This document shows, piece by piece, positions 2,255 to 35,673 of a stretch of DNA of 39,017 nt. The stretch's first letter is position 1; every line of letters begins with the position of its first letter. The DNA is from a virus, in IMG/VR virus record IMGVR_UViG_3300025131_004374, positions 1 to 39,017 of that record, one strand, 5' to 3'. The notes below the pieces were generated by a model. It had not been told where the DNA came from, ran no database searches, and worked only from the letters and a program-made list of their open reading frames with translations. The translations under genes were made by a program, and so were the position numbers.

Positions 2255-2434
2255 TCATTGCTCCCATGTGCGCGGCTTGGGCTCGACGGTGATCGCCGTC
2301 TTCGTATCGGCCACGGTGCTGCAACACTGGACGACGTATGCCTCCTGCTCCTCGCTCAGTTTCGGTGGTGTGCCGTGCGTCGGCTCTTTGGGATGGCGGT
2401 CTCGGCGAAACCGAAACCTCAGTTCGTTGTTCAT
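2255..2434 (-). CDS. Small unknown protein, 59 residues
   Basis: This short gene (starts MNNELRFRFR, ends PRTWEQ) fills the space between the glycosyltransferase and the HTH gene. Its ATG overlaps the glycosyltransferase stop as ATGA, and its TGA lies 2 bp before the next ATG, whose ribosome site it contains. The first ten residues are basic; two adjacent Cys occur at VVQCCST. No family is recognised. The tight coupling on both sides is the main evidence that it is real. Confidence 0.6.
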   Translation of the reverse strand: MNNELRFRFRRDRHPKEPTHGTPPKLSEEQEAYVVQCCSTVADTKTAITVEPKPRTWEQ

Positions 2435-3534
2435 ATCTGCGTGTCCGTGATCCGTGGCGTGTCGTTGAGTACACTGGTGACGGTGCAGTTCAGTACGTTC
2501 AGGTTGATCTGTGCGTCACGGTAGTTGGGGAGAGTGTCGATGGCTTGGCGTAGTAGGTTCTCGGTCGCGGTGTCGTCGAACAGTGCGAGGTTGTTCCACC
2601 CGGCCGCGCTCTTTGGGCACCTGTTCACATGACGTAGCATGTGTTCTTTCGCCCACTCGAGCCCCAGATGCAGCCCCACCGTGCCCCTGTAGAAATCAGG
2701 ATCGAACCGCTCGGGGTCCGGCGTTGCGTCCATCATGCATAGGATGCCCCATGCCGTCTCCCAGTCACCCAGGAACATGGACCGGAGCACTAGCATCTGT
2801 TGCGTGTGCTCGTCTGGGATGCCCCGGTCGGTGTACCACACCATGACGGCCTCGGCCGGGTATTGGGACAAGATAAACGCGGTGTCCTTCCTGCATGCAT
2901 CATGGTCGGCGCTCAAGCCCCCGGGGCTGCGGCGCATGAACATGCCCACGCGGTCGAGTTGGACAAACTTGCACCCGGTCGCCACCAGTTGCAGCCATGC
3001 GTCATAGTCATCCGAGTTGGTGACCTCTTCGCGGTATCGGATCGTGTCGATGGCTCTGCGACTCAACAGCGGGTGTGGATTCATGGTGTTGCGCTCGAAT
3101 AGCCGGGTCCAGCTCGCGTCGGATTGCGTCCACTCGGGAACCTTGCGCACGTCGTCGTCGCAGCCCATGTACTCCAGATGGTCGATGGTCACGTCTGCGG
3201 CTGTGGCCTTGGCTCGGTCCACCAGATGCGCCACTCTCGATGGGAGCCATATGTCGTCAGCATCGTGCCAGATCAGATAGTCCCCGTTGGCCTTCCTGCG
3301 GATCTGCTCACGGCGCCGGGATACGCCGAGGCTCTTCGCTCCTTGGAGGATCTGAGCGCGCGTGGTGTCGCCCCAGCGGTCTATCACGTGCCCGGTCTTG
3401 TCCTTGCTCCCGTCATCGATGACGATCAACTCGGTGTTGCCGTAGGTCTGGCCTGCCATGGACCCCAGCGCGTCACTGATAGTATCGGCTGCGTCTCGTG
3501 CGGTCATCCCGATGGTTACTCGTGGTTTACTCAT
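2431..3534 (-). CDS. Family 2 glycosyltransferase
   Basis: This 367-residue protein has an N-terminal GT-A domain of the GT2 family (about residues 5-230): a VTIGMTARDA opening strand, the nucleotide-binding ELIVIDDGSKD at about 35-45, and the metal-binding DxD within HDADD at 90-94. The C-terminal 130 residues are helical and TPR-like (AAGWNNLALF). Such enzymes transfer sugars from nucleotide-sugar donors to glycans, lipids or proteins in the cytoplasm. No membrane segment is seen. It is the last enzyme of a coupled block with a NeuB-type synthase, so a sialic-like sugar or a related glycan is a possible substrate, but specificity cannot be read from the sequence. Confidence 0.88.
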   Translation of the reverse strand: MSKPRVTIGMTARDAADTISDALGSMAGQTYGNTELIVIDDGSKDKTGHVIDRWGDTTRAQILQGAKSLGVSRRREQIRRKANGDYLIWHDADDIWLPSRVAHLVDRAKATAADVTIDHLEYMGCDDDVRKVPEWTQSDASWTRLFERNTMNPHPLLSRRAIDTIRYREEVTNSDDYDAWLQLVATGCKFVQLDRVGMFMRRSPGGLSADHDACRKDTAFILSQYPAEAVMVWYTDRGIPDEHTQQMLVLRSMFLGDWETAWGILCMMDATPDPERFDPDFYRGTVGLHLGLEWAKEHMLRHVNRCPKSAAGWNNLALFDDTATENLLRQAIDTLPNYRDAQINLNVLNCTVTSVLNDTPRITDTQI

Positions 3535-3791
3535 GCTGTCTCCCTCTGGTCAATGATCTCGCCATGTATGTGCCGGTTGTTGCAAAGCGCTAACGAGAAC
3601 TCGTTGATCGGCACCCACTCCTCCCCCACCATGCCCATGGATTGCACGGGCTCGCCGAATAGGGCGCACCAGTCACCGCAGTGGCACAACATATCATATC
3701 CGCCGCGTGAACTGACCGGGCAAAACATGTCAGCCATCTTGCCATGGCGCTCCAGTGCAAGCAGTCCTTGCGTGTCAATCACCGCTTTCAT
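3531..3791 (-). CDS. Small Cys-rich unknown protein
   Basis: An 86-residue protein containing MFCPVSS, CHCGDWCALFGEP and a late Cys, a pattern seen in small uncharacterised phage proteins that may bind a metal. It overlaps both neighbours by 4 bp (NeuB-type gene upstream, glycosyltransferase downstream), so it is translated as part of the sugar block. Function unknown. Confidence 0.7.
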   Translation of the reverse strand: MKAVIDTQGLLALERHGKMADMFCPVSSRGGYDMLCHCGDWCALFGEPVQSMGMVGEEWVPINEFSLALCNNRHIHGEIIDQRETA

Positions 3792-4840
3792 GTGATGGCG
3801 GCCCTCGGTATTGCGGTGTCCTCGTGGATGACGTAGGTGGCTGTCTTGCCCACCACCATGGCCATGTCCAGCCCGGTGAAGTTTACGCCACGGGTGCCAA
3901 GCGGCTGCTTGCAGGTCAGCATGTCGCGGGTGATAGGAACGTTGGCCGGGATGTCACAGGCGGCCACGATTGCCACGTGGTAATTTTCGCGGGTACTGCG
4001 CTCGATGTGTTTTGCCCCGGGTCGTGTGGTTGCCCGGTCAATCCTGCGAATGGAGAGCACTAGATCCTCCAACTCGTCAAACTCGATGGAGATGCTGTGG
4101 TCCAGCCCCAGCATACTGCGGGCGTTGGTGACGTGCTTCTCGATGATGTCGGCGCCGGCGCCCACGGCTGCAATGGCAATGTCGATCCCCTCGCAGTGGT
4201 CACTGTAGCCTATGGCGTTGTGTGGGTAGGTCTCCTTGAGTTTGGCGATGCGGCCCAGTGCGGCGTGTTCGTCGGGGCACGGGTACGCGGCCACACAATG
4301 CATGATGGCAAGCCCCCCGGGGGCTTGCTGGAGGATGTCGATGGCTCGTGCTTCCTCGTCCCATGTACAGCCGCCGATGCTGGCGATGATGGGGAGACGG
4401 GTGGCGGCGCAGGCCTCCAGTAATGGACCGTTGGTGATGCTGTGGGAGGCGATCTTGATGACGTCGGGGCAGAGCTCTATGTAGCGCTCCAGTGCGGGGA
4501 TGTCGAACACGGAGGATGCAAACCCCATGTGGCAGGCGCTGGCGTGGTCTTGCAGTCTGATCAGTGCGTCGGGTTCAAGCTCCAACTTCTCGCGCACCTC
4601 CCGCTGGGTGCGGCCGAGCTCGCGGCACTTGGCAAATGGCCGGTCCAGGTAGTCGGCCGTGGCCAGTGCCGATGGTGTCCTCATTTGGACCTTGACCATG
4701 TGCGCGCCGGCCATGGCGGCCCGGTCGAGCATCTGGCGAGCGTAGTCGTAGCGGCCGTTGTGGCAGTTGCCGATCTCCGCCACGATCATGGTCGGCCACC
4801 CGGCTCCCACCGTCCTGTTGCCGATGTTTAGCTCTCGCAT
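3788..4840 (-). CDS. NeuB/PseI-family nonulosonic acid synthase
   Basis: This 350-residue protein fits the N-acetylneuraminate synthase family, which condenses phosphoenolpyruvate with a hexosamine-derived sugar to make nine-carbon (sialic, legionaminic or pseudaminic) acids. Residues 1-275 are the TIM barrel with AEIGNCHNG at 21-29, GYSDH at 211-215 and IEKHVT at 233-238. Residues 289-350 are the SAF (antifreeze-like) domain that caps the partner active site in the dimer. Length is normal for the family. The start MRELNIGN was chosen for the GAGGAGG site upstream. No CMP-sugar synthetase (NeuA/PseF) is visible, so activation would depend on the host. Which sugar is used cannot be told. Confidence 0.9.
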   Translation of the reverse strand: MRELNIGNRTVGAGWPTMIVAEIGNCHNGRYDYARQMLDRAAMAGAHMVKVQMRTPSALATADYLDRPFAKCRELGRTQREVREKLELEPDALIRLQDHASACHMGFASSVFDIPALERYIELCPDVIKIASHSITNGPLLEACAATRLPIIASIGGCTWDEEARAIDILQQAPGGLAIMHCVAAYPCPDEHAALGRIAKLKETYPHNAIGYSDHCEGIDIAIAAVGAGADIIEKHVTNARSMLGLDHSISIEFDELEDLVLSIRRIDRATTRPGAKHIERSTRENYHVAIVAACDIPANVPITRDMLTCKQPLGTRGVNFTGLDMAMVVGKTATYVIHEDTAIPRAAIT

Positions 4841-5268
4841 TGTGTCCTCCTCTGTTCCAGCCATGCCATGAACTCGCGCACGTTTGCTTTGGGGTCTCCC
4901 GGGATCGGGTATTTCTGGTCGTCAGGCTCGATTGGGTCGGTCCACACCGGATGCGGTAGCGGCTGTCCTCCGGTCGTTTCATACATGCCGTTCGCGAGGG
5001 TATGCGTGTGAATGTCTGGTTGTACATGCTCACCTGCTCGCCCCATGAGTGCCTCGCCATCGCCGCGGACGCAGGTGACACTGAGATGGGGCATGGCCGA
5101 TGCGATGCCCTTGGCCACGGATTGGGATTCTCCCATGGCATGCAGTAGATACAGGTTGCCGGGTCGGTGCGCCACTGCCTGAGCTGTGCGCGATGTCAGC
5201 CCGTTGGAGAAAACGAGAGCGCCCTCGTGGTCGGTCACGATCTTGCGGATAGCTTCACTTCGTTTCAT
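4828..5268 (-). CDS. TPP-dependent decarboxylase, beta (PP-domain) subunit
   Basis: This 146-residue protein resembles the ComE half of sulfopyruvate decarboxylase and the C-terminal half of phosphonopyruvate decarboxylase. It has the TDHEGALVFSNG opening, LLHAMGESQSVAKG, the Mg/TPP-binding GDG at 69-71 and NGMYETTGGQ at 93-102. The distance from GDG to Asn93 is about 21 residues, shorter than the usual 24-27 or so, so a loop or helix of the cofactor domain is trimmed. It overlaps the alpha-subunit gene by 14 bp and the NeuB-type gene by 13 bp. The substrate is presumably a 2-oxo acid such as sulfopyruvate or phosphonopyruvate, but this is inferred. Confidence 0.8.
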   Translation of the reverse strand: MKRSEAIRKIVTDHEGALVFSNGLTSRTAQAVAHRPGNLYLLHAMGESQSVAKGIASAMPHLSVTCVRGDGEALMGRAGEHVQPDIHTHTLANGMYETTGGQPLPHPVWTDPIEPDDQKYPIPGDPKANVREFMAWLEQRRTQCES

Positions 5269-5959
5269 CGATTTGCCCCCTTCCCACCAGTAGCGCGACT
5301 ACCTTTCTGCGCCCGTAGGCTGCGCGGACGAGCCCTGGTATGGTTTGCTTGACGGGCCTGAGCATACCGAACTGGTCCCAGTCGATCCCGAACGCCTTGC
5401 ACACAAGACGAGTGTTTTTGCCCCACCACTTGTGCTGCACTTCCTCCTCTGGGAAGACGCCCCGGTCTGCGACCACCAGGAACAGCCCGATCTCACACAG
5501 ATGATGCAGCCCCACGATGGCGTCACCGATCAGGCCGAATCCACTGTTCTGCATCAGGACGCACGGGCGTTTGCCGGCGAGCGTTGCCCCGAACGCCGCG
5601 GCTACTGCGTGGTTCTCGCGTGGTGCAGGGTAGTAGGGGGTCAGGTGCGGTAACACCTGCCGGAACATGGAATCAGGAACACCGCTGAACCAGTCACACT
5701 CGGCCATCAGCGCCGCGGCGAACTCCTCGCCGGTGAACAGTGCGCGCCGGGCTGTGTGCAGTGGCCTGAGTCCATCGGTCGGGTCGGCCCGCTGGTCACG
5801 CTCTGCCATCTCGCTGGGCCGTGGCGCCTTCTTGCCGTCCCCGTCGCAGGGTTGCCACTCGTGGACGTTGGGGCTCTCGCAGGCTGGACAACCGTGGCGA
5901 GGCGGACTCTCGGGTCGCTCTTCCCAGCTCAGCCCGCAGGTGTAGCATACCTTGTGCAT
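5255..5959 (-). CDS. TPP-dependent decarboxylase, alpha (Pyr-domain) subunit with zinc ribbon
   Basis: A 234-residue protein in two parts. Residues 1-35 form a zinc ribbon (Cys5-x2-Cys8, Cys24-x2-Cys27). Residues 75-234 match the Pyr domain of sulfopyruvate decarboxylase ComD and phosphonopyruvate decarboxylase: WFSGVPDSMF, then PRENHAVAAAFGA with the cofactor-activating Glu114, then CVLMQNSGFG. The start overlaps the radical SAM stop as TGATG. The zinc ribbon is not part of the known enzymes and may be a scaffold or partner-binding unit. With the next gene it would form the complete alpha/beta enzyme. Substrate unknown. Confidence 0.82.
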   Translation of the reverse strand: MHKVCYTCGLSWEERPESPPRHGCPACESPNVHEWQPCDGDGKKAPRPSEMAERDQRADPTDGLRPLHTARRALFTGEEFAAALMAECDWFSGVPDSMFRQVLPHLTPYYPAPRENHAVAAAFGATLAGKRPCVLMQNSGFGLIGDAIVGLHHLCEIGLFLVVADRGVFPEEEVQHKWWGKNTRLVCKAFGIDWDQFGMLRPVKQTIPGLVRAAYGRRKVVALLVGRGQIDETK

Positions 5960-7305
5960 CAAAACAGCCCTCCTCGATACCCCAGCGGCTCGGCCACGTC
6001 GGCATGTAGCCGCACGGTGTGTAGCCCCATGGATCGGCATGCGGACGCGATCTCGCTCTCGAAACAGTAGCTCCCCGGTATCACGGTGCCCACGTTGTTC
6101 TCGATCATCGTGTCTGGGGCCGTGACGGTGTGCCCGCCGATCACCCGGCCATGGGCCTCGGGCATAGCGTCCACAATGCCACCGATCTGGAGCTCCGGGC
6201 AATGCTCGGCCAGTGCGGCGTACAGTTTGCCGCCGTATACCCCGGCACCCCATATCCAGACAGGGGAGGCAATGGGTTCCTCGCATATGTGGTGTAGCAC
6301 ATGGAGAAGGGCCGCGGCGCCAGCCTCGAACGGGAACAGACTCACCACCGTCCGCCGTCCCGTGTCGTTGCGCACGTCGGGCAGTTCAGTCGGGCCTTTC
6401 CCCAAGTAGGACCAGAGCGTGCGATAGGAGCACGGCATACGTGGGTTGCGGTTGTATGCCACGCATCCGTTGACCGCGGGGCAGTGGCCAATGGCCGGGC
6501 GCGGGTTCCAGTCGCGTGTGTAGACGTTGCCGATTGATTTGTTGACTGACTCGCATTGGTTGACCGCGCCGGTGTCCAGGTCAATCACGAAGTCGTCGTG
6601 TCCTGCCGGGCACCAGGTCTTGAACGTGTTCATTCCGCCTGCGGTGCCAGACCACAGCCTCATCAGGTTGCCGGGCTCGGTGGTGTAGCTCTCGATCCAC
6701 TCGGCCTCTTCGTCCGTGTAGTCGCGGGGATACAGCTTGCGCCGCCATGGGCCCTCCATGACTGCGAGGGTGAACGGGATACCGACCGCCGAGCACTTCT
6801 TGCACATGTGCTCAACCGTCATCCTGCGATCCATACTGGAAACCACAACAACCTGAACCGGAAAGCCGTCCGCCGCTAGGTCATGCGTACGATACCGCCA
6901 GTCACGCGAATCGACGGTGCTCAAATGGTAGCTCGCCTTGACGAACCCGCACCGCTCGGGGGGCAAACTCATCCTAAACGACCCCACGTCCTGCGTCAGA
7001 TTGGTCATCAGCGAGACCATGTAGCCCCGCTCTGCAAACGCCTTGAGCAGATACTCGAACTGCGGATGCAGCATGGGCTCTCCGCCACTGAGGCACAGGC
7101 TCCAGTGCGGAGCAGTGCGGCGGAGGAACGCGAGGAAGGCGTCGGCGTCCTCCCGTGTGCGTCCGCGGGGATCGCGCTTCGGGGACCGGGGTCCGGTGCA
7201 GTACTCGCATCGCAGGTTGCACTCGCTCCACATCTCGACGCCGGCCGACATGCCGCCTGCCGGGTGTTCGTGGTTGAATCTCAGCGGTGTACCGTGGTTG
7301 GTCAC
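5959..7305 (-). CDS. Radical SAM enzyme with extra Cys cluster and Rossmann-like C-terminus
   Basis: A 448-residue protein starting at GTG, with GAGGAGA upstream. The radical SAM cluster is Cys29-x3-Cys33-x2-Cys36, followed by the GGE SAM-binding motif at 74-76. Mid-protein there is a Cys-rich SPASM-like region (CPAGHDDF, CES, CPAVNGC, MPCSYR) that could hold auxiliary iron-sulfur clusters. The C-terminal 110 residues look like a Rossmann unit (VWIWGAGVYGGKLY), of the sort attached to sugar C-methyltransferases and other glycan enzymes. It is the first gene of the coupled block. The family performs radical chemistry on peptides, sugars or nucleosides; the substrate is unknown. Confidence 0.85.
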   Translation of the reverse strand: MTNHGTPLRFNHEHPAGGMSAGVEMWSECNLRCEYCTGPRSPKRDPRGRTREDADAFLAFLRRTAPHWSLCLSGGEPMLHPQFEYLLKAFAERGYMVSLMTNLTQDVGSFRMSLPPERCGFVKASYHLSTVDSRDWRYRTHDLAADGFPVQVVVVSSMDRRMTVEHMCKKCSAVGIPFTLAVMEGPWRRKLYPRDYTDEEAEWIESYTTEPGNLMRLWSGTAGGMNTFKTWCPAGHDDFVIDLDTGAVNQCESVNKSIGNVYTRDWNPRPAIGHCPAVNGCVAYNRNPRMPCSYRTLWSYLGKGPTELPDVRNDTGRRTVVSLFPFEAGAAALLHVLHHICEEPIASPVWIWGAGVYGGKLYAALAEHCPELQIGGIVDAMPEAHGRVIGGHTVTAPDTMIENNVGTVIPGSYCFESEIASACRSMGLHTVRLHADVAEPLGYRGGLF

Positions 7306-7366: not shown

Positions 7367-7555
7367 TTACCCTCTCGTTTCCAGCTTCGGCGGCCACATG
7401 TTAGACCTCATCGTCGCCTCAAACTGCGGGCACGGGTCGGTGGGGTTGAGCTCCAGGCGCTTGGTGCAGTCCACTGCCCGGCGCACGAGCTCGCCCGGCT
7501 CGGTTGGCCGGTTGACCTTGACCCTGCGGTGTAGGCATTTGAGGCAGTTAGTCAT
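7367..7555 (-). CDS. Small Cys-containing unknown protein
   Basis: A 62-residue protein with CLKCLHRR at the N-terminus and two further Cys (DCTKRL, DPCPQF), a spacing that could bind zinc. GGAG stands 7 bases before the ATG. Function unknown. About 60 bp separate it from the radical SAM gene. Confidence 0.55.
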   Translation of the reverse strand: MTNCLKCLHRRVKVNRPTEPGELVRRAVDCTKRLELNPTDPCPQFEATMRSNMWPPKLETRG

Positions 7556-8952: not shown

Positions 8953-9153
8953 TCACAAAGTACGCAAGAATTCCCTGCGCTGGTCCGGTGTGAGGCGAGC
9001 GTGAGCCCGTTCACACTCCAGCCGCTCACACTCAGCGTGAACAAACTCCTCGTCTGGAGCGGCTTCACCTGGCCACCTGAACGGGTGCGGGAACTTGTCT
9101 GCGCCGGGTTCTCCACACAGTCCACAGATGTCTTGCTGGTCAAGGTTGGTCAT
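8953..9153 (-). CDS. Small zinc-finger protein
   Basis: A 66-residue protein with CGLCGEPG near the start and HAECERLECERAH later, giving a Cys4 or Cys3His site. The start overlaps the replication-type gene stop as ATGA. Similar small HNH/zinc-ribbon phage proteins are common. Function unknown. Confidence 0.65.
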   Translation of the reverse strand: MTNLDQQDICGLCGEPGADKFPHPFRWPGEAAPDEEFVHAECERLECERAHARLTPDQRREFLRTL

Positions 9154-9938
9154 AGCGGTAACCCCAGTTTGGTTCGCTCATCGTCGCGGTCCTTGGCCTT
9201 CTGCGCATTGAGCGCGACAACCGAAGCCTCATTCTCCGCGTCGGTGGCCTTCCTCGGTCCCATGATGGGGTCTATCTCGGGGGTGGCCTTGGCCTTCAAT
9301 TCTTCAATACGCTTTTCGACGCTCTCTGGAAACAGTCCCTGCCATCCGGCTGTGATGGAATCATGAATGGCTTGGATGGCGACTGCCACGTCATGCTTGG
9401 CGAGCTTGCGCAGTTGGAACACCTTGGTGCTGGCGGTGATCGTCTTCTTCTTCTCGCGGCGAAACGTCTCCCAGTGGTCCCAAGCCTCTTGGAATTCTGG
9501 GGTGTCCAGACAGGTATCTATCTTATTATCCCTTAGATACTTTTCACTTATAGTCTTAGGCGGACATATCTGTCCGGGGTCCCCTACCAATTCTGTCCGG
9601 GGTCCCTTGCCACTTTTGGTACCCCTGCCAATTCTGTCACCCCTACCAGATGTGTCCGGGGTTATGTCAGGGAACGTGAACTTGGTCGTCTGTCCACGTC
9701 TGGCCTTTGCCTTGAGCAATCCGCGCTTCACCAGCGTTAGGACTTCGCGCCTCACTTGGCGGTCAGACTTGCCGATGTCCCTTCCGAGCTTGTCCATGGA
9801 AGGCCACGCTGTACCGGAGTCATTCTCCGCGTACAATCTGAGACGTCCATAGGCAAGTTTGGCAAGACTCGACAGCGTCCGGTCCTCCAGTATGTGAAGC
9901 GGGATCTTCACGTAAGGCACAATCTCATCTGTTGACAC
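9150..9938 (-). CDS. Winged-helix replication-type protein
   Basis: A 262-residue protein starting at GTG with GGAG 7 bases upstream. Residues 1-90 form a helix-turn-helix/winged-helix domain of the kind in phage and plasmid replication initiators (SLAKLAYGRLRLYAEND, then SDRQVRREVLTLVKRGLL). A Gly/Arg/Lys-rich linker follows, then a helical C-terminal domain with EAWDHWETFRREKKK. This layout matches phage O-like or DnaD-like proteins that bind the origin and load helicase; no helicase gene is recognised nearby, so the host one may be recruited. The role is inferred. Confidence 0.65.
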   Translation of the reverse strand: MSTDEIVPYVKIPLHILEDRTLSSLAKLAYGRLRLYAENDSGTAWPSMDKLGRDIGKSDRQVRREVLTLVKRGLLKAKARRGQTTKFTFPDITPDTSGRGDRIGRGTKSGKGPRTELVGDPGQICPPKTISEKYLRDNKIDTCLDTPEFQEAWDHWETFRREKKKTITASTKVFQLRKLAKHDVAVAIQAIHDSITAGWQGLFPESVEKRIEELKAKATPEIDPIMGPRKATDAENEASVVALNAQKAKDRDDERTKLGLPL

Positions 9939-9939
9939 T

Positions 9940-10149
9940 TCATGTCTCCATCCCCGGCCACAGGTACTTGACCGTCACCCCGAGCGCGTCAGCGATCATG
10001 TCGCGTGTGACGACTGTAGGAACCACTCGCTTGTTCAGAACTGCGGTAATGGTTCCCCGGCTCAGACCGGTGCGGCGCGCAAGCTCCGTCCCGGTGATTC
10101 CCCGCGCCGCCAACGCCGACGCCATCTTTGCATTTCGTTGTCTAGCCAT
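9940..10149 (-). CDS. Cro/CI-like HTH repressor
   Basis: A 69-residue protein carrying a complete XRE-type helix-turn-helix (GTELARRTGLSRGTITAVLNKR) and little else, the size of Cro-like proteins. The ATG start was preferred over an upstream GTG because GAGG stands 6 bases before it. It lies directly behind a promoter whose -10 region is a perfect inverted repeat, so it probably represses itself. There is no cleavage domain and no integrase, so lysogeny control is not established. Confidence 0.8.
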   Translation of the reverse strand: MARQRNAKMASALAARGITGTELARRTGLSRGTITAVLNKRVVPTVVTRDMIADALGVTVKYLWPGMET

Positions 10150-10175
10150 CGGCTTCCTCACTTTCCATGTGTGTA

Positions 10176-10196
10176 GTACATGTGTACACGGTACAC
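10176..10196. promoter_or_regulatory. Operator-like inverted repeats
   Basis: GTGTAC-ACG-GTACAC at 10182-10196 is a perfect inverted repeat, and GTACA-TG-TGTAC at 10176-10187 overlaps it. The two half-site pairs share the GTAC core, suggesting cooperative or alternative binding by the HTH protein encoded immediately downstream. Confidence 0.6.
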
Positions 10197-10216
10197 GGGG
10201 CCTGCGGGGGTGTCAA
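10188..10216 (-). promoter_or_regulatory. Sigma-70-type promoter of the repressor gene
   Basis: On the minus strand TTGACA (10211-10216) is followed 17 bases later by TACCGT (10188-10193). The -35 is perfect and the -10 is weak. The operator inverted repeat covers the -10. Confidence 0.55.
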
Positions 10217-10286
10217 GAGCGGGTGCTGTAAATCACTTCACTCCTCCAATCTCAGAAAGCAGAACGTCGAAAGCGACTGCTGCCAC

Positions 10287-10697
10287 TCACGCGGGCTTCG
10301 CTGTGTTCTCGGCATGCCATGCGAAATGGCACTTCTTGCAGAGCCACCGGACATCGAGCGGTTTGGAGTAGTCATCGTGGTGGCCATGTACGATGGTAGC
10401 GCCGTTCTTGCAGTGGCCAGACGCACCACACGATTGACACTTGTCCGGCCGTTGCAAGACGCCTTTGTGTAGCGCGACCTCTGCAAGGTTTTGCGCTCTA
10501 TCGCTTGCCCTTGATCCGTTACGCCAGAAGTGATTATCCTTCCCCGTGCGCTCTTGCGGACGGAGCTTAATTCTCCGACGCAAGGCGTACCAGATGCTGT
10601 TGTGGTGCTTCCCGAGGAACTTGGCAATGTCTCGGCAAGACATGCCTGCCTGGTAGAGTTCGACGGCCTTGGAGTAGTCTTTTCGTGGTGCGCCCAT
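10287..10697 (-). CDS. HNH-like zinc protein with HTH
   Basis: A 136-residue protein. The N-terminal half has a helix-turn-helix of the resolvase/homeodomain-like type (SCRDIAKFLGKHHNSIWYALRR at about 19-40). The C-terminal half has CQSCG, VHGHHDDYSKPLDVRWLC, CHFAWH, the His/Cys pattern of small HNH-fold proteins of phages. It may be an HNH homing-type nuclease or a DNA-binding derivative. AGGAGGT precedes the ATG, and a near-consensus promoter lies 20-50 bp upstream. It is transcribed on its own promoter at the front of the repressor segment. Confidence 0.7.
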   Translation of the reverse strand: MGAPRKDYSKAVELYQAGMSCRDIAKFLGKHHNSIWYALRRRIKLRPQERTGKDNHFWRNGSRASDRAQNLAEVALHKGVLQRPDKCQSCGASGHCKNGATIVHGHHDDYSKPLDVRWLCKKCHFAWHAENTAKPA

Positions 10698-10719
10698 AGT
10701 GACCTCCTGTATATAGGAC

Positions 10720-10748
10720 ACTATACCAAACATTGGACACGCTGTCAA
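10720..10748 (-). promoter_or_regulatory. Strong sigma-70-type promoter
   Basis: TTGACA (10743-10748) and TATAGT (10720-10725) on the minus strand are 17 bases apart, one mismatch from consensus in total six-mers. It overlaps the end of the cytosine methyltransferase gene and drives the HNH-like gene and probably genes beyond. GGACAC occurs twice around the -10, a possible operator. Confidence 0.75.
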
Positions 10749-11461
10749 GTGTTGGTGTCCATCAACAGTCGCCATGCGAGCGCCGCCACTGCTGGAACTT
10801 GGCCGTTGCCACAGGCGCCGTTGCGTTCGTCCAGCCGATCGGCCACCCCATCATCACCTCGCTCAATCTCGGCCATGGTTTCCGCCCGCCAAGATACTCG
10901 TCTAAATTGCTCCTGTAGGTCGCACTCCCCTTTGCCCCTCTGTTCGGTCCTGGCATGTAGACTGTTTTGCATGTCGGCACATAACCACAGCCTGTCTCTC
11001 TTATGGGCTGCACCAACATCGACCGCGCCCACAACTCCCCACCTCGCATCATACCCCAGCGCGGAAAGGTCTCCGAGAACTCTTCCAAGCCCCCGGCTAG
11101 TAAGCATTGGCGAGTTCTCCACGAACACGTGTCGTGGTTGTACCTCGCCAACGATCCGCGCCATCTCGGACCACAGTCCGGACTGGGCTCCGTCGATTCC
11201 TGCTCCCTTTCCTGCTGCCGAAATGTCGGTGCAGGGAAATCCCCCACTGACGACATCGACGCTTCCTTTCCATGGCTTGCCGTCGAAGGTCCGCACGTCA
11301 TCCCAGATCGGGAAGGGCTCAAGGATTCCGTCCCGTTGTCGGGCAAGGAGGATGCTTCGGCAGTAGGGATCAATCTCGACAGCACAGACGGTGCGCCATC
11401 CAAGCAACAGCCCTCCCAGGATGCCTCCGCCCCCTCCAGCAAATAGTGCCAACTCATTCAC
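10745..11461 (-). CDS. DNA (cytosine-5) methyltransferase, short phage type
   Basis: A 238-residue enzyme that would place a methyl group on C5 of cytosine in a DNA sequence. Motif I is LALFAGGGGG (4-13), the catalytic Pro-Cys is at 76-77 (GGFPCTDIS), motif VI ENS is at 115-117, motif VIII HKRDR is at 153-157, and motif IX/X GNGQVPAVAALAW is at 218-230. The target-recognition region is very small, as in other short phage enzymes. The start is GTG overlapping the upstream stop (GTGA) with GGGGGGA before it. Self-methylation against host restriction is the likely role. Another 231-codon frame runs through nearly the whole gene. Confidence 0.88.
   Translation of the reverse strand: MNELALFAGGGGGILGGLLLGWRTVCAVEIDPYCRSILLARQRDGILEPFPIWDDVRTFDGKPWKGSVDVVSGGFPCTDISAAGKGAGIDGAQSGLWSEMARIVGEVQPRHVFVENSPMLTSRGLGRVLGDLSALGYDARWGVVGAVDVGAAHKRDRLWLCADMQNSLHARTEQRGKGECDLQEQFRRVSWRAETMAEIERGDDGVADRLDERNGACGNGQVPAVAALAWRLLMDTNT
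10762..11457 (-). other. Long overlapping frame inside the methyltransferase gene
   Basis: A 231-codon open frame (starts MSWHYLLEGAEASWEG) begins 4 bases inside the methyltransferase gene and ends 17 bases before its stop. From memory, proteins opening MSWHY and containing FSETxPRWGMM and MGWPIGWT are annotated in other phages, always matching this alternative frame of short cytosine methyltransferases. It may be a conserved shadow of the enzyme or an overprinted gene. It shares the upstream GGGGGGA site with the enzyme start. Confidence 0.35.
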
Positions 11462-11823
11462 TCCCCCCACCGCACCCGAGAGGCAGACTCGATGGCCTTG
11501 CGCTTGGTGTTGCACGTCTCCCACTCGATGCCGCAGCAGTTCCAGGCAACCCAGTAGCCGGACCCGGACCCGTGCCCGCTCACCATACCACACTCCCCAT
11601 CCCCGCACTTCGGACACTTGGGGAGCTTCTGCACGGGCGCGGCTGGGGTCTTGAGTTCCTCGGGGGTTAGGGGGCGCCAATACTTCCAACAATCGGGGTT
11701 GTCCCTAACCCATACCGCAGTGCGTGGCCAATGACCAACCCCGTGGTCGGGGTCTTCAACGATTACCACCCCATCCCCCTCGGGAGGCTGGTCCTTGCAC
11801 GAGTACCATGTATGCTCACTCAC
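11458..11823 (-). CDS. DUF551-like plus Lar-like zinc-ribbon protein
   Basis: A 121-residue protein starting at GTG after a purine-rich site. Residues 5-55 resemble the DUF551 motif (WYSCKDQPPEGDGVVIV ... YWRPLTPEE). Residues 70-115 form a zinc ribbon (CPKCGDGECG ... WNCCGIEW) followed by AIESASRVRW, the layout of Lar-type proteins. Both parts are common in phage early regions. Restriction alleviation is possible but unproven. Confidence 0.65.
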   Translation of the reverse strand: MSEHTWYSCKDQPPEGDGVVIVEDPDHGVGHWPRTAVWVRDNPDCWKYWRPLTPEELKTPAAPVQKLPKCPKCGDGECGMVSGHGSGSGYWVAWNCCGIEWETCNTKRKAIESASRVRWGE

Positions 11824-12007
11824 GCTCTCTCTCCCTCTTGTGCCTCTCGGCTCTCTCCACGTATTGCACCGCATTGCGCCAGTTCTTGACCCCGCTAGCC
11901 TGAAACGCCTCGTCCAGGGGCATGCACTCGGCCTGGATGCACACGCGCTCTAGTAGATCGTAGTCCCAGATCCGCTCGGCTATCTCGGGGATGGGCTCGG
12001 GGTCCAT
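11816..12007 (-). CDS. Small unknown helical protein
   Basis: A 63-residue protein starting MDPEPIPEIAERIWDYD and ending in a charged RERERE tail; mainly helical and acidic at first, basic at the end. The start is uncertain: a longer version would begin at 12088. It overlaps the downstream gene by 8 bp and the upstream zinc-finger frame by about 110 bp. No family recognised. Confidence 0.5.
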   Translation of the reverse strand: MDPEPIPEIAERIWDYDLLERVCIQAECMPLDEAFQASGVKNWRNAVQYVERAERHKRERERE

Positions 12008-12191
12008 CAGAGGATGTCCTCGTGCTCTCGGACCATGTCCCGTTTCCAATTCTGGTATCATTACTCTGCTTGTATACCTTGCGGTCATCGGAGTGCCTAT
12101 GCTCAGTCATACACCGCACAATGTCCTCTCTGCTCGTGGAGAGCCTTCCGCACCGGTTGCAGTACCATGCGAGTCGTTGCGTCGGTTCCAT
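11895..12191 (-). CDS. Small zinc-finger protein, uncertain C-terminus
   Basis: A 98-codon frame with a strong ribosome site (GGGAGGGG) and an N-terminal Cys-x2-Cys-x12-Cys-x3-His motif (WYCNRCGRLS ... VRCMTEH). The last 37 codons overlap the next gene in another frame and read as low-complexity Arg/Pro/Ser, so the true protein may be shorter or the pair may be joined by a frameshift. The N-terminal half is the convincing part. Confidence 0.45.
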   Translation of the reverse strand: MEPTQRLAWYCNRCGRLSTSREDIVRCMTEHRHSDDRKVYKQSNDTRIGNGTWSESTRTSSDGPRAHPRDSRADLGLRSTRARVHPGRVHAPGRGVSG

Positions 12192-12194
12192 CCC

Positions 12195-12344
12195 TCACCC
12201 CTCCCAAGTACTACGAATCCCACCAGCGGCAATGGCACACAGCACCAACATGCCCAGGCAGGCACACGCGGGGCTCCGGTACCTGAATGCCAGGCCAGTC
12301 AGCCCAAGCCACACCATGCCGCCTGCGATCATCTTGAGGCACAT
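12195..12344 (-). CDS. Small hydrophobic membrane protein, 49 residues
   Basis: Starts MCLKMIAGGMVWLGL and ends GGIRSTWEG. Two hydrophobic stretches (residues 5-19 and 27-42) separated by FRYRSP suggest a hairpin membrane protein. GAGG stands 7 bases before the ATG. The start overlaps the upstream gene by 16 bp, and the stop lies 3 bases before the next ATG. A role such as superinfection exclusion or a small holin-like peptide is possible but not shown. Confidence 0.55.
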   Translation of the reverse strand: MCLKMIAGGMVWLGLTGLAFRYRSPACACLGMLVLCAIAAGGIRSTWEG

Positions 12345-12589
12345 TTGTCAGCCTCCGCATGTGCCCGCCGTTCCGCCGCCGTCGATGCTTCTGCCTCGCG
12401 TTCCATACTCTCAGCCCATGCAGTCATGCAGGCTATCGAGCAGAAGTGCAACTGGCGAGAGCCCCAATACTCGAACGGGTGGCCGGTCTCAACCTTGTAC
12501 CAACGCGGCAGGGGGCCAGGCTGGGCCAGGTCTAGTTTCACGGCTATGGTCTGACACGCATCACACTGCGTCTGTGCTGGTATTTTCAT
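12329..12589 (-). CDS. Small Cys-rich zinc protein
   Basis: An 86-residue protein with CDACQT and FCSIACMTAW, a Cys4 arrangement like MYM/TRASH-type zinc knuckles, then a charged Ala-rich helix. ATG was preferred to a GTG one codon earlier because GAGGAGG lies at a better distance. The start region overlaps the upstream stop. Function unknown. Confidence 0.65.
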   Translation of the reverse strand: MKIPAQTQCDACQTIAVKLDLAQPGPLPRWYKVETGHPFEYWGSRQLHFCSIACMTAWAESMEREAEASTAAERRAHAEADKCASR

Positions 12590-12804
12590 CACTCCTCCTC
12601 TAACATGCGGTCCAGTGACGCGTCTCTGTCTTTGCGGTACTGTTTGCGTTCTGCTTTCGAGAAAGCCCGTCCGCGTCTAAACATCTCGTCCCGCTCCTCC
12701 TTCTCGGTCACACGGGGAGGCGCGCTGACCCACACGGCAATGAAGAACATCGCCAGGAAGCCAGCACCGAACCACAGGAGATTGCCCAAGGTTGGCCAGG
12801 TCAT
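12589..12804 (-). CDS. Small inner-membrane protein
   Basis: A 71-residue protein with one N-terminal membrane helix (LLWFGAGFLAMFFIAVWV, about residues 9-26) and a highly charged cytoplasmic tail (KEERDEMFRRG ... RMLEEE). It overlaps the annealing-protein stop as ATGA. Role unknown; not an obvious holin since it has a single helix and long charged tail. Confidence 0.65.
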   Translation of the reverse strand: MTWPTLGNLLWFGAGFLAMFFIAVWVSAPPRVTEKEERDEMFRRGRAFSKAERKQYRKDRDASLDRMLEEE

Positions 12805-13760
12805 TGCTGGCCTCCCAGATCCGCCAACGCGGACACCTCGGCGCGGAATGCATCGTCCACCAGCAACTCCGCAGCGATGTCAGCCGGGATCTGTTTCACG
12901 CTCGTGTATGCCTTGCCCCGGTCACGCAGTGCGCGGACTACCAACTCAGGAGGACCGAGCGAGGACACGTCAGCATGCCAAGGCGGGTCGCATCTCGCCC
13001 AGGATTCTGAGCATGTGGGCTTGGGGTCCGTCGTTGTCGATGCCGGAGGACCACCCGGCACACGGGCCTCGGACACTGGCGGGGGCTGGGGGGCGTCGGT
13101 GACGGTGACGCTGGCTGCGTCGATGGTGATGGAGTCTCCAATCTCGCCATCTCGCACCTCGGTACTGGTGACGTCCTCAAAAAGCCACTTGCGTGCCTTC
13201 CTGATGGCTTTTCCCACGGCTTGGTCAACACTGCCCTCGTGGATGTTCTGCACCGGGATGTCGATGGCCTGCTCGTTCTCCTTGCCGTGCCACGTCCAGT
13301 AGATCATCACGGGCACGATGCCCTTCTTGCCGGCTGAGTCCATGCGAGTCACGCCGGGGACGATGGAGTAGGTCAGGTCGGGGATGTCGTGGAGCTTCTT
13401 GAAAAGACCCTCCTTGGTCACGTACATCTGACCCTTGATGATGTTGAACTGATTGCCGACCATGCCGAGGCCAGAGATCAGCGCGTGGGTCGCGCATTGC
13501 CTGACCACCGGCCAGTCGTACATGGGCTGGTTGTCCTTCTTGTCGGTCTTGAATCCGAGAGGCGTGCCAGCCAGTTTCGAGATGCTGTCCTTGATCTCTT
13601 CGGTGTTAAGCCACTTCTCGATCTCCCCGACGAGCTGTGCGGCCTGGATTGCCACAGCGAAATCCGCCTTGGTGCCAAAGACATCGAGTGCCTCGGCTTC
13701 CTTGCTCAGTCTTTCGATCGCGGTGATTGCCTCTTCGCGCTTTGCTACTTCGTTTGGCAT
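12801..13760 (-). CDS. Single-strand annealing recombinase-like protein
   Basis: A 319-residue protein. The central region (about residues 75-200) has GNQFNIIKGQMYVTKEG, then IHEGSVDQAVGKAIRKARKWLFE, which resembles phage RecT-type annealing proteins that promote pairing of single strands. The C-terminal part has a Pro/Thr-rich linker and a short helical end. It is encoded directly after a PD-(D/E)XK exonuclease, the standard partner. GGAGGTG precedes the chosen ATG. Family placement is from motif resemblance and context, so an Erf- or Rad52-type assignment is not excluded. Confidence 0.65.
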   Translation of the reverse strand: MPNEVAKREEAITAIERLSKEAEALDVFGTKADFAVAIQAAQLVGEIEKWLNTEEIKDSISKLAGTPLGFKTDKKDNQPMYDWPVVRQCATHALISGLGMVGNQFNIIKGQMYVTKEGLFKKLHDIPDLTYSIVPGVTRMDSAGKKGIVPVMIYWTWHGKENEQAIDIPVQNIHEGSVDQAVGKAIRKARKWLFEDVTSTEVRDGEIGDSITIDAASVTVTDAPQPPPVSEARVPGGPPASTTTDPKPTCSESWARCDPPWHADVSSLGPPELVVRALRDRGKAYTSVKQIPADIAAELLVDDAFRAEVSALADLGGQQ

Positions 13761-18831: not shown

Positions 18832-19812
18832 TCAATGGGTCTCGACCATTTGCCTGAGCTCATCGTCGCTCAGCCAGCGGTCATTAGTGTCGCTGTTGAA
18901 ACTGAATCCGTCCGGTAGACCGTCCGCGTCCTTCCAGTTGACGTCACCCCAGCGATGATACTCGGGCAAGATCACGAACATGTCGTCGAGAGCCTTTGTG
19001 TGCCGGGCTTCATCGACGGACACCAGGCACTCGTGGAGCTTCTCGCCAGGGCGTATTCCAGTGCACTCGATGTCACATCCAGGTGCGATGGTCTTGGCCA
19101 GCTCCATGATCCCGAGACTCGGAATCCGGGGCACGAAGACCTCGCCACCCACCATGCGCTCGAGCGATAGGGAGACGAACTCAATGGCCTGATCCAACGT
19201 CAGCCAGAAACGAGTCATCCGTGGGTCGGTGACCGTCACCTTCCCCTGCTCGCGTTGCTGGCGGAAAAGCGGGATGATGCTGCCACGGCTGCCGAGGACA
19301 TTGCCGTACCGGACGCAGCAGAATCGAGTGGCCCGGCCACCGGCGTATGAATTGCCCTGAATGAACAACTTCTCGGCGCAGAGCTTTGTCGCGCCGTATA
19401 GGTTGGTCGGAGACACGGCTTTGTCGGTGCTGAGGCCGATTACCTTCGGAACATTGCAGTCAATGGCGGCATTGATGACGTTGTGGGCTCCGAGGATGTT
19501 TGTCTTCACCGCTTCGAACGGGTTGTATTCGCACGCGGGCACCTGCTTGAGGGCGGCGGCGTGGATCACAACGTCCAGGCCCGCCTGGAAAGCACGGTGC
19601 AGGCGGCGCTCATCTCTGACGTTGCCGATGAAGAATTCCAGGCGCCTCTCACCTCGGAATTCACTGCGGATGTCATGCTGCTTGAATTCGTCCCGGCTGA
19701 AAACGATGATGCGTTCCGGCTGGCCATCGTCGAGCACACGCCTGACCAGACGACGCCCGAAGGAGCCGGTTCCCCCCGTGACGAGAATCCGCTTGTCTTT
19801 GAATGCTCTCAT
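18832..19812 (-). CDS. pseB: UDP-GlcNAc 4,6-dehydratase (inverting), PseB/FlaA1-like
   Basis: A 326-residue short-chain dehydrogenase/reductase. It has the NAD(P) motif TGGTGSFG at 12-19, the catalytic Asp130-Lys131 in STDKA and Tyr139-x3-Lys143 in NLYGATK, matching the known Asp/Lys/Tyr/Lys set of Helicobacter FlaA1 offset by two. That enzyme converts UDP-GlcNAc to a 4-keto-6-deoxy-5-epimer, the first step to pseudaminic acid. PseC, H, G and F are not seen, so the product must be used by host enzymes or stand alone. It overlaps the membrane protein upstream as ATGA and is the last gene of the late operon. Confidence 0.9.
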   Translation of the reverse strand: MRAFKDKRILVTGGTGSFGRRLVRRVLDDGQPERIIVFSRDEFKQHDIRSEFRGERRLEFFIGNVRDERRLHRAFQAGLDVVIHAAALKQVPACEYNPFEAVKTNILGAHNVINAAIDCNVPKVIGLSTDKAVSPTNLYGATKLCAEKLFIQGNSYAGGRATRFCCVRYGNVLGSRGSIIPLFRQQREQGKVTVTDPRMTRFWLTLDQAIEFVSLSLERMVGGEVFVPRIPSLGIMELAKTIAPGCDIECTGIRPGEKLHECLVSVDEARHTKALDDMFVILPEYHRWGDVNWKDADGLPDGFSFNSDTNDRWLSDDELRQMVETH

Positions 19813-20117
19813 CCGATGGCGTGGTAGAGAAAGAGGCATGCGGTTGCCAGCGCGATCAGAACACCAACGATGGCAATGGTAGTTTTGGTCGTCTGGCGAC
19901 TGTCGGCTAGGCGAGTCTCGATAGAGCCAACTCGGCCAATGATGCCAGGTTGGCCGTTGCCGTTCAGCGCCTTGTGGTTGTCATCAGTCAGCCGCTCAAC
20001 GATGCCGACCGTAGTGAGGATCTTCGCGGTGGTATCACCGAGCTTGTCAATCTTCTCGCCATTCGCGCGAGCGGTCGCGACAAATGTCTCTATGTCTGCT
20101 CTGTCTTCTACAGTCAT
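19809..20117 (-). CDS. Tail-anchored membrane protein (holin-like candidate)
   Basis: A 102-residue protein with a charged helical N-terminal 75 residues and one membrane helix at the C-terminus (TTIAIVGVLIALATACLFLYHA). The layout resembles XhlA-type hemolysin/holin accessory proteins of phages. It lies at the end of the tail genes, where lysis genes often sit. Start MTVEDRADI has GGGGGTGG upstream. No endolysin is found beside it, so the lysis role is tentative. Confidence 0.55.
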   Translation of the reverse strand: MTVEDRADIETFVATARANGEKIDKLGDTTAKILTTVGIVERLTDDNHKALNGNGQPGIIGRVGSIETRLADSRQTTKTTIAIVGVLIALATACLFLYHAIG

Positions 20118-34473: not shown

Positions 34474-35673
34474 TTATCCCATCACCAACTCAATGTTCTC
34501 GATAGCCGCCTCGGCCGCTTCCTGTGCCGCGTTGCGCGTGGCCCCCGTTGCCATCACGCACCCCAGCCGGTCGGAGTGTGACCGCACCTCGGTGACCCGT
34601 TGACCAGCCCGCGCGCGGATGTCCACCAGTAGCAACCCGCGCCACGAGTCCAGGTCGGCCACTCCGCGGATGGCGAGGATCTCGCCCAGCTTCCCGGGGA
34701 ACAGATACCGTTGGCACACGTGGGTGTTGCAACTCGGCGCCAGGTCGGCCCGTGTCAGGCGGTCACCAACGCACTGCCGGATAGCCAAGGAGACCAGATT
34801 GACACCAGTCGCGGCAGGGATCTGGAACGCGGCGAAATGCCCACCCGACAGTCGCGCGTGCATCTCGACGATGATGACGTCATCAGCGGTAGCGATCATG
34901 TCGGCCTTAACCGGGCCAGTGGTCAGGCCCATGGCGCGGGCGTGGTCCTCGAATCGCATGGCGATCAGTCGCCGTGCCGGGTCGGTCAGGTCTGCCGGCA
35001 TGTCGCCACCGTCCTCGATGATGTAGGGAGCGAACTGGCCCCACCGCGAGTAGTTGCGGTCGCTGATGCCCACGATACGCGCCGTGTGATCGTCACCTAC
35101 TACCATCCCCTCCACCGATATCTGTTGTCCATGCACGATCTGCTCGGCGATGGCAACGCCCGAGGTAGAGCTCTCTATGGCTCGGTGCCATGCAGTGGTC
35201 AGTCCTGCGGGCTCGGTGACCACAGACACACCACGCGAGCCACGCCCGTCAGGTGGTTTGACAATGATCGGGTAGTCGGGGTCGGTCAGGTCCACCGCGG
35301 GGGCCATGTGGGCACGCCCCATGCCGCGACCGGCCTCACGCTGGAGGATCTTGTTTGCTGCGATCCGTGCCGCCTCGTTGGAGATCGACACCAGGCCGCG
35401 CGCGTTGGCCACTGCCGCCACGGTCATTGGCACATCACAGCCAAGGCTGAACACGCCACACAGCGGACCATTGAACCGCTCCCACTTCTCGGCCTCACGT
35501 AGGGTGCCTTCGATGTCATAGGTGGACACGCACGCCTCGTGTGCCGCCTGCTCCAGTCCCGGTGCTGACGCATCACTGTCGGTGCAGAATACGTCCAGCC
35601 CGAGTGCGGTCGCCTCTGAGATCCCGGGCAGTGACTCGATGCCGCCGCCAATCATCATTATTGTTCCCTGCAT
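34474..35673 (-). CDS. ATP-grasp ligase
   Basis: A 399-residue enzyme of the carbamoyl-phosphate-synthase-like ATP-grasp group. An N-terminal pre-ATP-grasp domain starts MMIGGGIESLPGIS. The ATP-binding region has YPIIVKPPDGRGSRGVSVV, and the metal-binding end has DVIIVEMHARLSGGHF. Members join a carboxylate to an amine or thiol using ATP; many lie in surface-polysaccharide or natural-product clusters. It is inserted between the large terminase and the gpW-like gene, which are neighbours in lambda. GAGGACACC precedes the ATG. Substrate unknown. Confidence 0.85.
   Translation of the reverse strand: MQGTIMMIGGGIESLPGISEATALGLDVFCTDSDASAPGLEQAAHEACVSTYDIEGTLREAEKWERFNGPLCGVFSLGCDVPMTVAAVANARGLVSISNEAARIAANKILQREAGRGMGRAHMAPAVDLTDPDYPIIVKPPDGRGSRGVSVVTEPAGLTTAWHRAIESSTSGVAIAEQIVHGQQISVEGMVVGDDHTARIVGISDRNYSRWGQFAPYIIEDGGDMPADLTDPARRLIAMRFEDHARAMGLTTGPVKADMIATADDVIIVEMHARLSGGHFAAFQIPAATGVNLVSLAIRQCVGDRLTRADLAPSCNTHVCQRYLFPGKLGEILAIRGVADLDSWRGLLLVDIRARAGQRVTEVRSHSDRLGCVMATGATRNAAQEAAEAAIENIELVMG

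Follow-up and report, generated by a model that had tools for sequence, protein, structure and literature searches.

A translationally coupled radical SAM, split decarboxylase, NeuB and glycosyltransferase block in a tailed phage as a candidate divergent glycan cassette

The stretch of DNA analysed here (the window) is the entire IMG/VR virus record IMGVR_UViG_3300025131_004374, 39,017 bases long, which encodes a tailed phage with a gpA-type TerL (terminase large subunit), a Nu1-like TerS (terminase small subunit), a lambda-type portal and an HK97-type capsid. Its minus strand carries, from 7305 to 2431, a block of six open reading frames (ORFs) encoding a radical S-adenosylmethionine (SAM) protein, the alpha and beta subunits of a thiamine diphosphate (ThDP)-dependent decarboxylase, a NeuB-family synthase, a small Cys-rich protein and a GT2-family glycosyltransferase, in that order. 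This block had been described in an initial annotation made from the sequence alone, and we confirm it as a run of overlapping ORFs, none of which contains an internal stop; family matches bear out the identities then given to the radical SAM protein, the split decarboxylase, the synthase and the glycosyltransferase. The six genes are as follows.

5959..7305, minus strand: radical SAM protein, 448 aa, GTG start (PF04055, 3.8e-9)
5255..5959, minus strand: ThDP decarboxylase alpha subunit, the pyrimidine (PYR) half, 234 aa (TIGR03297, 1.7e-17; TIGR03845, 8.2e-13; PDB 9iz3 RhiEF alpha, 2.3e-7)
4828..5268, minus strand: ThDP decarboxylase beta subunit, the pyrophosphate (PP) half, 146 aa (TIGR03846, 1.0e-12; PDB 9iz3 beta, 3.1e-7)
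3788..4840, minus strand: NeuB-family 3-deoxy-ulosonic acid synthase, 350 aa (PF03102, 3.3e-60; TIGR03569, 5.7e-68)
3531..3791, minus strand: orphan Cys-rich protein, 86 aa, ATGA-coupled on both sides, no family assigned
2431..3534, minus strand: GT2-family (GT-A) glycosyltransferase, 367 aa, with a DAD motif (PF00535, 2e-21)

Neighbouring genes overlap by 1-14 bases: the junction of the radical SAM and alpha genes reads TGATG, alpha and beta share 14 bases, beta and neuB about 13 when NeuB is counted from the ATG at 4840 (an alternative start at 4864 gives 358 aa), and ATGA joins the 86-aa gene to neuB on one side and to the GT2 gene on the other. Shine-Dalgarno-like stretches precede the genes of the radical SAM protein (GAGGAG), alpha (GAGGAGG), NeuB from 4840 (GAGGAGG) and GT2 (GAGGGAG). 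The codon use of the block is phage-like, with correlations of relative synonymous codon usage of 0.90 against the early and 0.89 against the late phage genes. The genes upstream of the block include those for an O-like replication protein, an exonuclease and a C5-methyltransferase, and a helix-turn-helix-like ORF lies downstream; the block thus sits in an early operon, as had been proposed, and its gene setting fits. By sequence, one translationally coupled unit encodes a split decarboxylase with ThDP motifs, of the phosphonopyruvate/sulfopyruvate type, together with a NeuB that retains its phosphoenolpyruvate (PEP)/metal core, a GT-A glycosyltransferase and a radical SAM protein.

The decarboxylase is divided as in the split phosphonopyruvate decarboxylase (Ppd) and sulfopyruvate decarboxylase types, with a PYR-half alpha that carries the catalytic Glu and a PP-half beta that carries GDG..N and TGGQ. 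In the alignments alpha keeps GVPDS, PREN with the catalytic Glu, MQNSG and EVQH with its His; GDG, the motif Asn and TGGQ are likewise retained in beta. To the initial annotation we add a Zn-ribbon-like CxxC..CxxC stretch at the N-terminus of alpha. The scores lie below the equivalog cut-offs of TIGR03297 (63.5 against 312.5 bits), TIGR03845 (48.6 against 147.95) and TIGR03846 (48.3 against 221.5), and alpha matched nothing among the named phages. An AlphaFold model of beta from a 10-row alignment reached a predicted local distance difference test score (pLDDT) of 71, and its best PDB matches by Foldseek were RhiEF and AzcBC. RhiEF, the split phosphonopyruvate decarboxylase of rhizocticin (PDB 9iz3, 9iz4), is the top PDB match of the window pair both by sequence and by fold, and shares with it the two-subunit alpha/beta organisation, the PYR Glu motif, GDG-N and TGGQ; the differences are a low identity and, in the window pair, the Zn-ribbon-like stretch, the shortening of the ThDP motif and the lack of a PepM partner. 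AzcB/AzcC (PDB 9u8q) has the same split fold but belongs to a Streptomyces natural-product pathway, in which we know of no NeuB. AzcBC decarboxylates alpha-imino acids in a ThDP-dependent reaction, which shows that phosphonopyruvate is not the only substrate of this family.

In a combined tree of the two subunits, alpha and beta, the window pair groups on a long branch with Nitrospirota/Rokubacteria enzymes (support 89), and this rules out its placement in the clade of the phage PepM-associated decarboxylases. We took the best 80 loci of bacterial decarboxylase relatives, and those examined were largely 2-aminoethylphosphonate (AEP)-type phosphonate clusters with PepM, Ppd, AEP transaminase and nucleotidyltransferase; split alpha/beta forms occur among them in Nitrospirota and Nitrospinota. 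The enzymes nearest in the tree, from three such loci of these two phyla (L007, L008, L010), have the same alpha/beta split but are adjoined by AEP transaminase and nucleotidyltransferase genes, with no NeuB or radical SAM gene detected nearby.

The synthase scores 204 bits against the PF03102 cut-off of 22.1 and so belongs to the NeuB family; it also has a weak SAF domain. All of the catalytic PEP/metal residues are present (E25, K53, K129, S132, S213, H215, E234 and H236 in NmNeuB numbering), as are Y186 and D247. The columns of E134 and R314 hold Ser and Gln. In NmNeuB these two residues are in contact with the acceptor sugar or act on it, and therefore the acceptor of the window enzyme is likely, on residue comparison, to differ from that of NmNeuB; position 134 itself varies across the compared NeuB rows (39 Asp, 24 Glu and 8 Ser of 108). 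The equivalog cut-offs of TIGR03569 (229 against 399.65 bits) and TIGR03586 (147.5 against 340.25 bits) were not reached, and the named phages gave three weak matches only. The window resembles the known nonulosonic acid pathways (NeuB, PseI, LegI) in the family and PEP/metal residues of its synthase and in having a PseB-type dehydratase elsewhere in the genome, but differs from them in the two acceptor-site positions and in the absence of NeuC, PseC/G/H and NeuA. From the pseudaminic acid set PseB, PseC, PseH, PseG, PseI and PseF, only a PseB-like protein and the NeuB-family member are found in the window. Three NeuB neighbourhoods on plasmids (L002, L004, L005) are ordinary nonulosonate-type clusters without a decarboxylase.

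The first protein of the block scores 37.4 bits for PF04055, above the Pfam cut-off of 29.5, which places it in the radical SAM superfamily, and its CX3CX2C motif at residues 29-36 reads CNLRCEYC. Its middle is Cys-rich and SPASM-like by eye, with no Pfam SPASM match. The C-terminus (about residues 340-430) is Rossmann-like, and this domain is common to a methyltransferase of a NeuB-bearing viral contig (L137) and a protein from the record of a second (L093). No full-length relative was found in 399 Pseudomonadota genomes, which gave generic matches only, and none in the named-phage collection; a PHROG match is weak and QueE-like. The 86-aa Cys-rich protein has no family in the profile libraries, no phage match and no relative among the compared loci. 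A second small Cys-rich orphan of 62 aa, also without a relative among these loci, lies directly upstream of the block (7367-7555). The GT2 protein keeps its DAD motif as read from the sequence.

Viral relatives of the block were sought in IMG/VR, where 190 NeuB-bearing viral loci were found and 80 were kept for gene content. Among these 80, a NeuA-type synthetase was present in 49, a PseB-type dehydratase in 19, NeuC in 10 and a radical SAM protein in 8, and several of the viral NeuB cassettes are placed between terminase and portal genes. Searched with the NeuB profile, 30 TerL relatives, many of them fragments, gave no match. Scanning viral contigs with a single alpha or NeuB sequence gave nothing; alignment-based profile searches detected five viral contigs in which NeuB and a split Ppd-type decarboxylase occur together, with cassettes at the following positions.

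L126, 5425-14363: NeuB and Ppd cassette
L175, 2496-11657: NeuB and Ppd cassette
L179, 810-11652: NeuB and Ppd cassette, with a radical SAM protein
L183, 236-12132: NeuB and Ppd cassette, with a radical SAM protein
L186, 1636-11933: NeuB and Ppd cassette, with a radical SAM protein

Their common order is DUF4910, CMP-nonulosonate synthetase, NeuB, LicD, PepM, Ppd alpha, Ppd beta, in some an Fe-alcohol dehydrogenase, and CTP-transferase, with a GT2 gene ahead of NeuB in L126, L175 and L179. L175 encodes a PEP mutase (TIGR02320, 7e-70) with EDKx5NS, an Fe-alcohol dehydrogenase of the phosphonate type (TIGR03405, 1e-43), NeuB (5e-100) and PseF (1e-17). The beta subunit of L179 matches Ppd (5e-37), and its radical SAM protein is of the B12-binding type. 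The NeuB profile match of L183 crosses a stop, and the synthase is short in L183 and L186. From their gene content, the five contigs apparently encode phosphonate plus nonulosonate glycan pathways of phages. They resemble the window in having NeuB and a split Ppd within a few kb, glycosyltransferases and, in three, a radical SAM protein; they differ in having PepM, CTP-transferase, LicD, NeuA and a compact alpha, and in a decarboxylase of another lineage. Of the set that marks these cassettes (PepM, CTP-transferase, LicD and NeuA together with NeuB and both Ppd subunits), the window shares only NeuB and the decarboxylase pair. In addition, two viral contigs (L093 9923-19020 and L137 2-8358) each unite in a single cassette NeuB, NeuC, a radical SAM protein and a ThDP enzyme resembling acetolactate synthase, and the combination of radical SAM protein, ThDP decarboxylase and NeuB thus recurs in phages. 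In L178, L181, L185 and L187 the decarboxylase pair was found with phosphonate genes, and NeuB was not detected. A further phage contig of 85.9 kb (IMGVR_UViG_3300046004_001116) has PepM, a fused Ppd, a methyltransferase, a nucleotidyltransferase and AEP transaminase at 9053-13562, and apparently encodes an AEP pathway.

We lean towards the view that the block is a phage-borne glycan cassette, divergent and reduced, through which PEP-derived units would enter a glycan of the host surface or the virion; as such it is a new form of phage-borne glycan cassette. In the mechanism that we propose, NeuB would condense an aldose and PEP, giving a 3-deoxy-ulosonic acid; the alpha/beta pair would decarboxylate a 3-substituted pyruvate (which need not be phosphonopyruvate), with an aldehyde or carbanion as the outcome; the sugar or the C2 unit would be edited by the radical SAM protein; and GT2 would transfer the product onto the host-surface or virion glycan. 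The activation enzymes would come from the host, and the PseB-type dehydratase of the phage may supply a sugar-nucleotide precursor. The cassette would work like the PepM-Ppd-NeuB-LicD cassettes of other phages, yet as a separate version, and its purpose is likely to be an altered host surface (receptor masking, superinfection exclusion) or an altered virion coat. The initial annotation, whose observations were accurate, had made the sensible guess of a sialic-like or phosphonate-bearing glycan. The five viral contigs, with NeuB, split Ppd, PepM, CTP-transferase, LicD and a PseF/NeuA-type synthetase, support the general idea; a specifically sialic product is not supported, given the acceptor-site changes and the equivalog scores, nor is a phosphonate product for this phage, given the lack of PepM. 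The outcomes that it had named as fatal to its proposal did not come about, in that the enzyme types co-occur in other viral contigs, the active sites are mostly intact and the block, with best identities of about 30-45%, is no recent copy of a host cluster. It had known of no described phage pathway with this set, and we too found no description of phage nonulosonate, phage PepM or this enzyme set in open-licence PubMed Central papers, which is weak evidence of novelty.

Several observations weigh against our preferred view. Profiles or single queries found in the window no PepM, AEP transaminase, alcohol dehydrogenase, CTP-transferase or LicD, and no NeuA, NeuC, DegT or sugar amidotransferase, in agreement with the initial annotation, in which relatives of NeuA, PepM and aminotransferases were missing; a PepM profile built from 84 sequences also had no match, in a contig that may be incomplete. 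The gene order did not recur, the exact block being found in no other locus compared, and the five viral contigs are largely one cassette lineage and not five independent confirmations. NeuB lies within 10 kb in none of the best 80 bacterial decarboxylase loci. The stretch from GDG to Asn in beta is about 5 residues shorter than in the aligned relatives, the branch of the window pair is very long (2.89 changes per column), and the single-sequence structure model of the radical SAM protein (pLDDT 33) is unusable. Searched with the NeuB profile, 30 TerL relatives, many of them fragments, gave no match.

The strongest alternative, which we regard as doubtful, is that phosphonopyruvate is made by the host, or by phage genes past the left end of the contig, that the decarboxylase of the phage converts it to phosphonoacetaldehyde and that the phosphonate so formed decorates the NeuB-derived sugar. 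The genes of L126, L175 and L179 imply such a decoration, the related phage cassettes have PepM (EDKx5NS) adjoining the decarboxylase pair, and the nearest decarboxylase relatives are mostly in AEP pathways; moreover, the left end of the genome is unproven, as no other assembly runs past it. Against this stand the 39 kb without PepM, AEP transaminase, alcohol dehydrogenase or CTP-transferase, and the tree, in which the decarboxylases of the phage PepM cassettes form another group than that of the window pair. For the identity of the C2 unit phosphonate has the best precedent, though without PepM in the window, and we put it forward only tentatively.

It is also conceivable that the ThDP pair acts on the product of its neighbour NeuB, an alpha-keto acid that is, like phosphonopyruvate, a 3-substituted pyruvate. 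Decarboxylation would then leave a sugar longer by two carbons, a 3-deoxy aldose or branched sugar, to be edited by the radical SAM protein and attached by GT2. We know of no precedent for a NeuB product as a decarboxylase substrate and consider this route improbable; if true, NeuB plus decarboxylase would be a new sugar-elongation chemistry in phages.

Equally hard to favour is a decaying or moonlighting acquisition, in which some members, beta above all, have become inactive and the block as a whole no longer serves a pathway. The shortened ThDP motif, the very long branch, the many missing partner genes and the divergence of the early region between near-identical phages speak for it, but all six overlapping ORFs are open and key residues are retained. 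Hypermodification of phage DNA, with the radical SAM protein, GT2 and others building a group on modified bases early in infection together with the C5-cytosine methyltransferase, would suit the early operon, the C5-methyltransferase and ATP-grasp protein of the genome and the weak QueE-like match, but it is very improbable, as no TET/JBP dioxygenase, hydroxymethylase or aGPT-PPlase was found among the scanned ORFs, NeuB and Ppd-type enzymes elsewhere adjoin surface-glycan genes, and to our knowledge neither is known from DNA-hypermodification pathways.

Phages are known to alter host surface glycans using a few borrowed enzymes. The window phage brings its own carbon-skeleton enzymes, and if these enzymes work, phages would produce phosphonate or ulosonate sugars and not only use them, with consequences for receptor masking, for superinfection exclusion and for our view of where environmental phosphonates come from. 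The larger surprise is the existence of phages whose genes appear to make up complete phosphonate-plus-nonulosonate cassettes, of which we likewise found no description in the open-licence papers searched.

Two further genes of the window, both overlooked in the initial annotation, may be relevant.

18832..19839, minus strand: PseB/FlaA1-type UDP-GlcNAc 4,6-dehydratase, outside the operon (PDB 2gn4, 2.5e-101; PF02719, 2.5e-100)
34474..35673, minus strand: ATP-grasp/L-amino-acid-ligase-like protein (PF18603, 1.9e-18; PDB 3vot, 9e-9)

The dehydratase, whose STDK and YGATK motifs are conserved, is encoded near the gene of a ConA/LamG-like tail protein and may be a source of sugar-nucleotide precursor. 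The ATP-grasp gene is inserted between TerL and the portal region and has no PHROG match; its link to the block is a guess.

The right end of the window is probably real, because two further assemblies, matching it at 99.9% over 18-28 kb, also reach 39017. One of them, G413 (L254, L255), is 99.9% identical over 28 kb and then diverges sharply left of window position 10973, which gives the early region the look of a recombination zone, or else reflects an assembly join. The near-identical contigs G413 and G414 stop short of the block, and no second allele of it is present there. Near the left end, a protein encoded at 692-1708 has a CAECGKEFQTRG Cys motif and many tandem copies of a short RQTPEYKEYHRV-like unit, and its sister gene at 73-711 has the same Cys motif.

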